Notes under the pieces: generated by a model
The model's database searches: none
Seen by the model: the letters and a program-made list of their open reading frames with translations, nothing else
Told to the model about the DNA's origin: nothing
Translations under genes and position numbers: made by a program
Shown: one piece after another, positions 3,965-30,613 of the stretch
Numbering within the stretch: the stretch's first letter is position 1
How the letters are laid out: the number at the start of each line of letters is the position of its first letter
From: Alphaproteobacteria bacterium
Lineage (GTDB): Bacteria; Pseudomonadota; Alphaproteobacteria; UBA2966; CAIVPW01
Reading direction: 5' to 3'
Assembly (NCBI GenBank): GCA_018658465.1
Contig: JABHVE010000122.1
Span: 1 to 32,927 of the forward strand
Length of the DNA: 32,927 nt

Positions 3965-4680
3965 GCGTTTTGGCTGGGCAGCGCTGGTTCGGGTTCTATT
4001 GGAAGGTGGCCGGTCAGCCGATCCGCGAGGTCGGTGACGGCGGTAATGGCGGCTTCGATTTTTGCTAGGGCGGCGGCGCAGGCGTCGTCGTCCGCGTCCC
4101 GGGGAATTGTGATCGGTTCCCCCCACACGAACACGCCGCGGGAAAACGGCAAGGGCACCTGGAATTTATCCCAGCTGGCCATGATTTTGCGGCGGCTGAC
4201 GCTGATTGCCATGGGGATCACCGGGACCCCTGCCAGACGCGCCGCAGTCACCACGCCTGCCCGGGCGCGCATATGGGGCCCGCGGGGGCCGTCCGGGGCC
4301 AAACAAATGCTGGCACCGTTTTTCAATGTTTTGACCATGGCCCGCAGCACCCCGGCACCGTCATCGGATGACGATCCGCGCAATGCGCCGATGCCAAACC
4401 GGTCCATGGTTTGGGCCAGCAGATCGCCGTCCCGGTGGCGGGAAATGATGGTCTTGATGGGCACGCCTTTGCGCCATCCGTAAAACAACATCATCAGACG
4501 ACCGTGCCAAAAGCTGAGGATAAAAGGCTGGCCCTTGTCCCACATTTGGGCTGGGAATTCCTCGCCCGTGACTTCCCATCGGGTGGTGACGTGGACCAAC
4601 ACCATGTACCAAGCCGCAAGGCGCGCGGCCAAGTACCGAATAAATCCAACTCTTACAATTTGTCTTGCTGCTCGTTTCAT
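3961..4680 (-). CDS. DUF374 lysophospholipid acyltransferase family protein
   Basis: FILSFWHGRLMMLFYGWRKGVPIKTIISRHRDGDLLAQTMDRFGIGALRGSSSDDG...DGPRGPHMRARAGVV. Confidence 0.9.
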   Translation of the reverse strand: MKRAARQIVRVGFIRYLAARLAAWYMVLVHVTTRWEVTGEEFPAQMWDKGQPFILSFWHGRLMMLFYGWRKGVPIKTIISRHRDGDLLAQTMDRFGIGALRGSSSDDGAGVLRAMVKTLKNGASICLAPDGPRGPHMRARAGVVTAARLAGVPVIPMAISVSRRKIMASWDKFQVPLPFSRGVFVWGEPITIPRDADDDACAAALAKIEAAITAVTDLADRLTGHLPIEPEPALPSQNA

Positions 4681-26107: not shown

Positions 26108-26494
26108 ATGACCGGGCAAATCGCACCAGAAATTTCCCCTTTCCGCGCCGGACTGACGTTTAAGTGTCCGAACTGCGGGAAGGGGAAACTCTATTCTAAG
26201 TACCTCGAAATCACCGAAAACTGCGACGTTTGCGGCGTAACCCTGGGCGACCTGGACACCGGCGACGGCCCAGCCGTATTCGTCATGCTGTTGGTGGGCT
26301 TTGCCGTTGTCGGCCTGGCCCTGGTGGTGGAGGTCAAATTTTCACCGCCTCTGTGGATGCATATGGCACTGTGGACCCCGCTGATTTTGGGCGGGTCCTT
26401 GTCCATGTTGCCGTTATTGAAATCGATGATGTTTGCTGCGCAATATCGCACCCGCGCTGGCGAAGATGTAACAACGGAAGATGATAAATCATGA
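26108..26494 (+). CDS. DUF983 family protein
   Basis: FKCPNCGKGKLYSKYLEITENCDVCGVTLGDLDTGDGPAVFVML zinc-finger-like N-terminus plus TM helices; between coxC and surf1. Confidence 0.9.
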   Translation: MTGQIAPEISPFRAGLTFKCPNCGKGKLYSKYLEITENCDVCGVTLGDLDTGDGPAVFVMLLVGFAVVGLALVVEVKFSPPLWMHMALWTPLILGGSLSMLPLLKSMMFAAQYRTRAGEDVTTEDDKS

Positions 26495-27228
26495 GCCGCG
26501 GTGCCGTTATTTTCATGTCGATCTTGGTGGTTGTCCCGGCGTTTGCGGTGTTGATCGGCCTGGGGTCTTGGCAGGTCCAGCGCCTGAATTGGAAGAACGA
26601 TTTGATCTTCACCCGTCAAGCCGCCCTTGACGTGGATCCGGTGCCCATCCCGGGCCGCGACGACCAAGTGGAGCGCATGACGTTTCGCCGGGTGATCGTC
26701 ACCGGCACCTTCCTCCATGACCAGGAATTCTATTTTTACGCCCCCAAATCCGGCAAACAGGGGTACCGGGTTGTCACCCCCGTGTTACAGCAAATCGGCG
26801 TGACCTTGTTGGTGGATCGCGGCTGGGTCCCGGCGGATAAACGTGACCCGGCGACGCGCCCCGAAGGCCAGGTCGAAGGCGAGGTCACCATCACCGGCAT
26901 TGTCCGCACCGACATTGTCGGGGTCCAAGGGCCGCTGCCCGACAATGACGTGGAAAACAATGAATGGTTCTGGGTTGATCCCACCGCCATGTCGGCGGTC
27001 CACGGGGCCTATTACCGACCGGCCATTGTGGTCGCCGACGACACCGCCAATCCCGGCGGCTGGCCCCAGGGTGATGCCACCGTACCGGGCCTGCGCAACG
27101 CCCATCTGGGGTACGCGATCACCTGGTTTTCGTTGGCCTTTGCGCTGATTGTGATCTGGATCCTGGCCCTGCGACGGCGGCTGTCCGGTGCGGATACTGT
27201 CCCCGTCAAAGACTGGGGCGAAGATTAG
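26491..27228 (+). CDS. surf1: SURF1 family cytochrome oxidase biogenesis protein
   Basis: LGSWQVQRLNWKNDLI, GYRVVTPVLQQIGVTLLVDRGWVPADKRDP, HLGYAITWFSLAFALIVIW. Confidence 0.93.
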   Translation: MSRGAVIFMSILVVVPAFAVLIGLGSWQVQRLNWKNDLIFTRQAALDVDPVPIPGRDDQVERMTFRRVIVTGTFLHDQEFYFYAPKSGKQGYRVVTPVLQQIGVTLLVDRGWVPADKRDPATRPEGQVEGEVTITGIVRTDIVGVQGPLPDNDVENNEWFWVDPTAMSAVHGAYYRPAIVVADDTANPGGWPQGDATVPGLRNAHLGYAITWFSLAFALIVIWILALRRRLSGADTVPVKDWGED

Positions 27229-27276: not shown

Positions 27277-27432
27277 CTCTCCCCACCGAGGGAGTGAGTG
27301 CGACTGCACGCAAAAGGCTGCTTCGCCACCGCTGTATGGACCCCCGGATTAATTCCCGGGTGATGACAAAGGGGAAATTGGGGAAACGGCATGTCCCCTC
27401 TCCCGCCTGCGGGGGAGGGGTAGGGTGGGGGT
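27277..27432. repeat. Cluster of degraded G/C-rich palindromic intergenic repeats
   Basis: ccctctccccaccgagggagtgag; tggacccccggattaattcccgggtgatgac; cccctctcccgcctgcgggggaggggtagggtgggg. Confidence 0.6.
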
Positions 27433-27449
27433 GTTCAACGAAGGGACCG

Positions 27450-28745
27450 TCAGGCCCAGAACATGGCAGTGGCGTAAAGCCAGTGGCCCACGTTAGCGCC
27501 GACGAGAGGCGCCGAATGCCAAAGTCCCCAGGAAAACCCGACAAGCATAGCCGAAGCTGTTAATACCGCGGCCATCAGCCACCCGACAATCACGACTTTT
27601 TCGCCGGTTGAAGGCGCATCGCCAGATTCCAACATCCCCGCTATTGGCACTCGTCCCGGCATTGGGCGTAGGACCAACGCTGTCAACCCGGTTACCATGT
27701 GCAGAGCGGTTGGAATCAGAGTGGTGGCCAACATTCCCGTGACCACAAGACCAGCAGCAAATGGGGTGTCATGAGCCGCCCTGGCGAATGAAACCCAGTC
27801 CACTGCATTCGCACCTATTTGCCCAAATCCCGCATTTAGCGCAATGACAATGGGGGGTAGCCAGAAGGCTAGCGAAAACAGAAATCCAAGGGCGAGCATG
27901 GCGTCCACCGCAATTTTTCCTGCCACTTTCCATGGGTTCACGTCCTTGGCGATCAGTCCAACAAAAATCCGACTTGCCGCCCAGGACAACCAATCGTGCA
28001 AAGCGTTGAGCAGAGGTAGTACCACTAAGAAAATCGTCAAATATATTGCGGTGATTGAGGAGCCGATCGCTACTAGCAACAAGGCTCCAGCAGCCGCGGA
28101 AGCCGTGAAGAATGTGGCTGCTTTGGTGCCGTCTGAAGGGTTCAAGCTCATCGCGCCGATAGCGATTCCAGCGATAGCTATCGTTCCGATTAGTCCAATC
28201 CCTCCACCGACTTTAAGCGCTAGATACGCAATGCCAGTAACCGGGCCAGCTACAAGAATCGCCGACATGAGGCCCCAAGGCTCTACGAACTCGGCGGGCC
28301 ATTTGCTCTTGCGAAACGGCCGCTTTCCCCCGTGGATAAACCCAAACGAGTATCCAACCGCTGCACCTGCTGCCAAAACCAGTATACCCATCGCATCGCT
28401 CGGACTTGGTTGGTCCGAATTTTCTACATCAGCCGTTACTGTCAAGATGCTCGCCGACCCACCAACCGCCCAGGAAGCGAGAAAGAACGCCACAGGGTAT
28501 ATGAGCGAAAGACTTAGTGAGCGGGTAAAAGCGAGCCAGGAGAAACTCGGGCCGAAGAAATTTTCTGTCCAACCCAACCCTATGGCTAGGGCCTGTCAAT
28601 ATCCGACCCACCATGACCCATTCCTCAGCCACTCCGCCAATCGCGCCTGATCCTTTGGGTCGCTCACAATGTTGTAAAGGAGCCGAGCAATTCCGCCGCC
28701 GCCAATGACAAAGAAGATGATCGAAATCCAGTTGCCCGCGATCAC
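27450..28745 (-). pseudogene. Multi-TM membrane protein of unknown function interrupted by a single in-frame TGA at 28598-28596
   Basis: The 375-aa ORF (27450..28577) and the ORF ending at 28596 are in the same frame, separated only by TGA CAG GCC CTA GCC ATA GGG. Candidate GTG start at 28745, just after the upstream ABC gene stop. Confidence 0.7.
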
Positions 28746-28756
28746 ACCCGACCCCT

Positions 28757-30613
28757 CTAGTCCGCCGCTTCTAGGTCTAAATTTTTCTGTTGCCGCGCCC
28801 ACAACATGGCATAGGTCCCGCCGTCGCGCAGCAAGGCATCGTGGGTGCCGCGTTCAACCGTCTTGCCGTCTTCCAACACCAATATCTCGTCGGCATGGAC
28901 CACGGTGGAGAGCCGGTGGGCGATGATCAACGTGGTGGTGTCTTTGGATACTTCGCGCAGGCTTTTCTGAATTTCCCGCTCGGTTTTGGAATCCAATGCC
29001 GACGTGGCCTCATCAAACAAAAAGATCCTGGGGTTTTTCAAGATCGCTCGGGCGATGGCCACCCGCTGCTTTTCGCCGCCCGATAATTTCAGGCCCCGTT
29101 CCCCAACCACCGTGTCATAGCCATCGGGCAATCCGGTGGCAAAGTCGTTGATTTGCGCCAATTTTGCCGCGTTTTCTACTTGATCTTGGGTGGCGTCCGG
29201 CTGGCCAAAGGCGATGTTGTAATACAAAGAATCGTTGAACAGCACCGCGTCTTGGGGGACCACGCCAATGGCGGCGCGCACCGTGTCCACTTTGACATCG
29301 CGCAGATCGGCACCGTCCACCAACACTTGGCCCGACGACGGATCATAAAAGCGGAACAGCAAACGCCCCAATGTTGTCTTTCCCGCGCCGCTGGCGCCGA
29401 CGATGCCGACGGTGCGCCCGGCCTGCACGGTGAACGAAACATGGTCCAACAACGGTCGGCGCACATCATAGGTAAAGGATACGTCGCGGAATTCGACCTT
29501 GCCGTCGCCGCCGCCTAATGGCGTGGCGTTTGGGGCATCGCTGACCTCGGGCTCCTCCATCAACAAGCCCATCATCTGCTCCACATCGACGAACGACTGT
29601 TTGATGTTGCGATACAAATTGCCGACCCGGTCCAAGGGCCGGATGATTTGCAGCATGTACATGTTCACCAGGACAAAGCCGAAAACCTCCATGGAGCCAG
29701 CGACGATTCGGTTGCCCGCCAACAAAATCATGCCGGTTAGGCCCAAGCCCAAAATCAAAACCTGGATGACCCCGGTGACGGATCGCGAGGTCAACGCCTT
29801 GATGGTCAGGCGTTCCACTTTGGCCAGGGAATCGTCATACCGTCCGGCGACGAAATCTTCGTTGCCGAAATACTTCACGGTTTCATAATTCAGAAGGCTA
29901 TCCACTGCCTTGCCGTGGGCAGCGGCGGATTCCACCACGGCTTTGCGTTGATGTTTGCGCAGCCATTCCGATCCGATGATCAACGCCACGGTGTACAGAA
30001 CGAATGTGCCCAGAATGATGGCGGTGAAAACGAAATCGAAAAACGCCAACATCACCACCAAGATGATGACGATTTCGGTGACCAGGGGCAAAATCATGAA
30101 CACCGTGGCCATCAGCAGATTGTCGACGCCGCGGGTGCCGTTATCCATGATCCGGCTCAACGCCCCGGTTTTGCGACCGATGTGAAACCGCATGCTCAGT
30201 TCATGCAGATGCCGGAACACGGTCATGGCGACGTTGCGCTTCAGGCGCTGCTCGATGGGGCCGTACAGCAACCAGCGCAATTCGCTCATTGCCTTGCCGA
30301 ACGAATGCACCGCGCCGTACCCCAGCAGGACGGCCAACGGCAAGACGGTGACAGCGATGACCCCAACGACCTCGCCACCGTCGCCAATGATTTCGCTCGG
30401 TGTTAGGCGGTCCACAGCCAGGGCAAAAAGCACCGGAGCCAAGGCGTTCAGCCCCGCCGTCGCCGCCAACAAGCTGATCGAAATCACCAGCCGCACGCGC
30501 AAGGCGATGTCGTCCTTGGGCCACAAGAACGGCGCCATCATGGCCAGGGCCTTGATGTCGTGGGCCTTGCTCAGCTCCGCGTCTTCGGTAATTCGTCCCA
30601 ATCCGTGTGCCAT
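28757..30613 (-). CDS. ABC transporter permease/ATP-binding protein, Atm1/HMT-like
   Basis: Atm1-like TM region (RFHIGRKTGALSRIMDNGTRGVDNLLMA), Walker A VGASGAGKTTLGR, LSGGEKQRVAIARA, IFLFDEATSALD. Confidence 0.9.
   Translation of the reverse strand: MAHGLGRITEDAELSKAHDIKALAMMAPFLWPKDDIALRVRLVISISLLAATAGLNALAPVLFALAVDRLTPSEIIGDGGEVVGVIAVTVLPLAVLLGYGAVHSFGKAMSELRWLLYGPIEQRLKRNVAMTVFRHLHELSMRFHIGRKTGALSRIMDNGTRGVDNLLMATVFMILPLVTEIVIILVVMLAFFDFVFTAIILGTFVLYTVALIIGSEWLRKHQRKAVVESAAAHGKAVDSLLNYETVKYFGNEDFVAGRYDDSLAKVERLTIKALTSRSVTGVIQVLILGLGLTGMILLAGNRIVAGSMEVFGFVLVNMYMLQIIRPLDRVGNLYRNIKQSFVDVEQMMGLLMEEPEVSDAPNATPLGGGDGKVEFRDVSFTYDVRRPLLDHVSFTVQAGRTVGIVGASGAGKTTLGRLLFRFYDPSSGQVLVDGADLRDVKVDTVRAAIGVVPQDAVLFNDSLYYNIAFGQPDATQDQVENAAKLAQINDFATGLPDGYDTVVGERGLKLSGGEKQRVAIARAILKNPRIFLFDEATSALDSKTEREIQKSLREVSKDTTTLIIAHRLSTVVHADEILVLEDGKTVERGTHDALLRDGGTYAMLWARQQKNLDLEAAD

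Follow-up and report, generated by a model that had tools for sequence, protein, structure and literature searches.

The occurrence of single nonsense codons in otherwise intact bacterial genes has been investigated by Belinky et al. 2021, where conserved in-frame stops were judged by their presence in two or more species combined with dN/dS (PMC7918605). The gene described here resembles these cases in carrying one nonsense codon in a frame that is otherwise intact, but it differs in that its TGA is found in one genome only instead of two or more species. With selenocysteine genes it shares an in-frame UGA, but it lacks SelB, tRNA-Sec, a SECIS-like structure and a cysteine at the corresponding column. 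Its closest counterpart is a multi-transmembrane (multi-TM) family of Pseudomonadota, represented by L059, L068, L055, L056 of Leisingera aquaemixtae, L053 of Rhodovulum and, in other classes, L121 and L122. Common to these proteins and our copy are an N-terminal TM segment, the motifs 'LR.g....Y...L...L..vd.fFg', 'YP', 'LPLlNA.fDwlS' and 'LfsTllPTllH', a similar length and a hydrophobic, variable centre, whereas our copy is distinguished by its interruption and by a short centre that is devoid of AVAVAGAV runs. The gene resides in the window, by which we refer to the whole analyzed stretch of 32,927 nucleotides of an alphaproteobacterial contig, where the relevant features are the following:

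27450..28745, minus strand: interrupted multi-TM family gene (GTG start, 49 amino acids, TGA, 381 amino acids, TGA)
28757..30613, minus strand: ABC transporter (membrane and ATPase domains), the upstream neighbour, ending 11 nt before GTG 28745
28752..28758, minus strand: Shine-Dalgarno-like AGAGGGG, 6 nt before GTG 28745, read from the sequence
28599..28745, minus strand: upstream part of 49 amino acids, with an N-terminal hydrophobic helix and the first half of the 'LR.G....Y' motif
28596..28598, minus strand: in-frame TGA, followed by C, straight after a conserved Tyr and within predicted helix 45-64
28575..28577, minus strand: TTG, the first start-like codon past the TGA, with an abutting GGG but no Shine-Dalgarno sequence at usable spacing
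27450..28595, minus strand: downstream part of 381 amino acids, with motifs FGxSFSxLAFxRSLSLSLIYP, LPLLNALxDWLS and LxTTLIPTxLH
26491..27228, plus strand: SURF1 family gene, the convergent downstream neighbour

On the minus strand, the frame proceeds from the GTG at 28745 through another 48 codons to the TGA (28598-28596) and continues for 381 open codons to a terminal TGA at 27450, exactly as described in an earlier note on this DNA. The note was also right in placing both sides of the TGA in the same frame, with six sense codons separating it from TTG 28577; the TTG itself, which it took for an annotated start, is no more than the earliest start-like codon past the stop, and 375 codons are open from there. 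At the local composition, an open run of 381 codons would arise by chance with a probability of about 5e-7, that of the 48 upstream codons with a probability of 0.16, which by itself is unremarkable. When the whole window was scanned for split frames by codon usage, other sites were listed but not the TGA of the multi-TM gene, illustrating that codon usage alone is unable to single out this split. The proposal that the sequence is coding on both sides is upheld by homology.

The TGA itself falls within a conserved element. Across 18 homologous rows, the region is defined by the element LR.G....Y-x-..L...L..vd.fFg, where the TGA occupies position x immediately after a near-invariant tyrosine. 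At this column, all 18 rows contain a sense residue, either Q, R, K, A, T, D, E, L or F, as seen when the homologues were compared in the way that the earlier note had recommended. The lost codon may, as had been suggested, have been an arginine, but the column is variable. The homologous rows extend upstream through the N-terminal segment, all except one that is cut by a contig end. A profile constructed without the window copy assigns 135.1 bits to the joined frame (E 1.7e-43 in a database of one) compared to 118.0 bits for the frame starting at TTG 28577, and none of 2000 shuffles of the upstream 49 residues reached the value of the joined frame. The upstream part adds 17 bits to this window-free score, and it is because of this homology that we consider both parts to belong together. 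In a smaller profile confined to alphaproteobacterial members, the equivalent scores are 65.5 and 58.7 bits, with 4 of 2000 shuffles reaching the former. The joined frame as modelled by AlphaFold (mean pLDDT 66.8) contains an N-terminal helix comprising residues 2-28, and its residue 50 falls within a helix spanning residues 45-64. By homology, and by its N-terminal TM segment and tyrosine motif, the gene is a member of the family, with the continuity of its frame as the feature that is missing. It has retained 33 of 50 conserved columns, compared to 34/52, 34/50 and 36/52 in intact divergent members.

Contrary to its initial description as an orphan, the protein belongs to a family with patchy distribution in Pseudomonadota, from whose other members it has diverged very far (18-25% identity). 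Searches with the downstream part as single sequence did not detect relatives in 61 close genomes, a scan of GTDB contigs or plasmids. Access to the family came from a permissive search across the class that used the joined frame and identified a 510-residue protein at L004 with 40% identity over residues 49-96, a weak match that falls just where the TGA is located. The reverse search from the L004 protein recovered the window gene including its TGA, with a pairwise alignment of 294 columns. Members were found in 11 of 385 sampled genomes of the class Alphaproteobacteria in a profile search (E up to 0.01), and equally in 11/385 with a larger profile at 1e-5, where several of the matches are short or partial. 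Further members exist elsewhere in the phylum, some of whose matches cover only the low-complexity centre and are to be discounted. In a tree, the window copy groups weakly with members from other classes and with L124 (support 82/75), on a long branch that leaves its placement uncertain. The family had no match in Pfam and PADLOC at 0.1, a single weak one in NCBIfam (1 of 13 members, E 0.039) and an insignificant one in a sequence search of the PDB (E 0.15). Fold searches of the PDB gave no credible match from which a function could be read off (best E 0.016 and 0.05, TM about 0.2), and no copy of the family turned up in plasmids, phages or viral contigs when these were searched with the members tried. 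As a guess, intact relatives might work as membrane transporters or sensors.

The family is fast-evolving, and several of its members have features of their own. The genes at L050:3156-4705, L051:3-1406 and L055:1585-3105 share about 76-86% DNA identity at their ends, while their centres cannot be aligned at the DNA level, and in two of them (L050 and L051) the GC content falls to 0.43-0.49 in this region. From these sequences, it looks as if a central segment had been exchanged between conserved ends. Long hydrophobic repeats of the type AVAVAGAVAVAFAVA are found in the centre of L045:4947-6644, L061, L068 and L124. In the L050 homologue, the reading frame shifts around positions 4000-4040, in or close to a run of eight A (A8), reflecting slippage, error or decay. 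Tandem copies are present in genome G259 (L045:3198-6644) and two copies in G301 (L059 and L068). Inspection by eye places the family gene of two Rhodobacteraceae (L050, L055) about 12-24 nt behind a gene resembling a peptide-binding ABC transporter protein. Overall, the neighbour genes of homologues are not conserved.

The surroundings of the window copy are informative with respect to its origin. In both G001 and G004, which represent sister genera, the ABC transporter gene directly meets surf1 with an overlap of four bases, and other genomes of the same taxonomic family contain no copy detectable in a search of low sensitivity. The multi-TM gene was therefore probably inserted between these two neighbours. 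Its downstream part has a lower GC3 (0.57) than all 18 window genes compared (0.64-0.77) and ranks below each of the listed window genes in codon-usage score, both in keeping with foreign or relaxed sequence. Between the interrupted gene and surf1 lies a GC-rich palindrome (CCCCTCCCCCGC..GCGGGAGAGGGG) at positions 27394-27434. It is a REP-like dispersed element, with partial copies (81-96%) at about ten other places of the genome.

Together, these results describe one interrupted multi-TM gene, for which the suggestion of a recent pseudogene in the earlier note stands as the best reading, whereas its assignment as an orphan does not and its mention of selenocysteine is disfavoured. We assign a probability of about 0.68 to a family gene that was acquired between the ABC transporter gene and surf1 and in which one recent nonsense mutation has turned codon 50 into a TGA that stops translation. 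The 381 downstream codons contain no second lesion despite 108 single-base paths to a new stop, which, if the sequence has evolved neutrally, sets an upper limit of about 0.02-0.09 substitutions per site to the divergence since the appearance of the TGA, with or without indels counted. This intactness and the retained conserved columns imply that the interruption is either recent, an error or tolerated, and the lack of a second lesion would be expected just as well if the assembly were wrong or the stop were read through. It is rather unlikely that the TGA was introduced by a mistake in assembly or sequencing, or that the consensus picked up a minor allele, while the living population carries an intact gene. 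Such an origin would agree with the otherwise undamaged frame and with the location of the window on one contig of a draft genome of 155, and the stop was seen in the consensus of one MAG, the sole genome representing its genus; yet single-base errors are uncommon in an assembled consensus.

A functional role of the stop has to be regarded as improbable. Read through at its UGA-C context, it would throttle the output of full-length protein, and its maintenance as a low-level throttle on a costly multi-TM protein appears slightly more doubtful still. The frame, the start site and the motifs are kept on either side, and in-frame stops that are conserved by purifying selection have been reported to be widespread in bacteria (PMC7918605), but such stops tend to persist for only a short evolutionary time (PMC7918605), a stop at this column is absent from all 18 homologous rows, no second genome keeps the TGA and the surrounding RNA is not unusually structured (z -0.2 to -0.6). 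The possibility of readthrough raised in the earlier note has thus found no positive evidence. The same z-scores apply to the proposed SECIS-like stem 3' of the UGA, which was not found, nor were selenocysteine genes: in the genome, which is about 95% complete, no SelB scored above cut-off and the sole match over threshold in the search for tRNA-Sec was a tRNA-Ser(tga). With cysteine also absent from the column in all 18 rows, selenocysteine at this position is disfavoured. So is a reassignment of UGA, since RF2 is present (prfB, 505.7 bits), TGA serves as the stop of several window genes and no internal TGA occurs in 18 window genes (7,224 codons), although the latter were chosen as open frames and show only that long genes need no decoding of this codon. 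Less credible than readthrough is a separate, shorter gene from TTG 28577, expressed alone or by reinitiation after the TGA. Most of what the family profile scores (118.0 bits) falls on its 375 open codons, but a usable Shine-Dalgarno site was not recognized in the preceding sequence, no homologue among the 18 rows begins near this position, where the earlier note had considered separate proteins, and the TTG is located within a conserved predicted helix, so that a start there would drop the first TM segment. The GTG, in contrast, has a Shine-Dalgarno-like sequence 6 nt in front of it, which overlaps the stop of the ABC transporter gene.

In case of a recent nonsense change, ribosomes would start at GTG 28745 and terminate after 49 residues, leaving a fragment with one TM segment as product, while the remaining 381 residues would be made at most at a background level of readthrough or reinitiation. 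The gene would then count as a pseudogene of young age, or else as an allele of the population that carries a nonsense codon. The interruption itself is a matter of ordinary gene decay or of sequencing. More interesting is the multi-TM family, whose ends are conserved while its central part varies strongly from one close relative to the next. It has no matching Pfam or NCBIfam model and is worth a family model and the assignment of a function.
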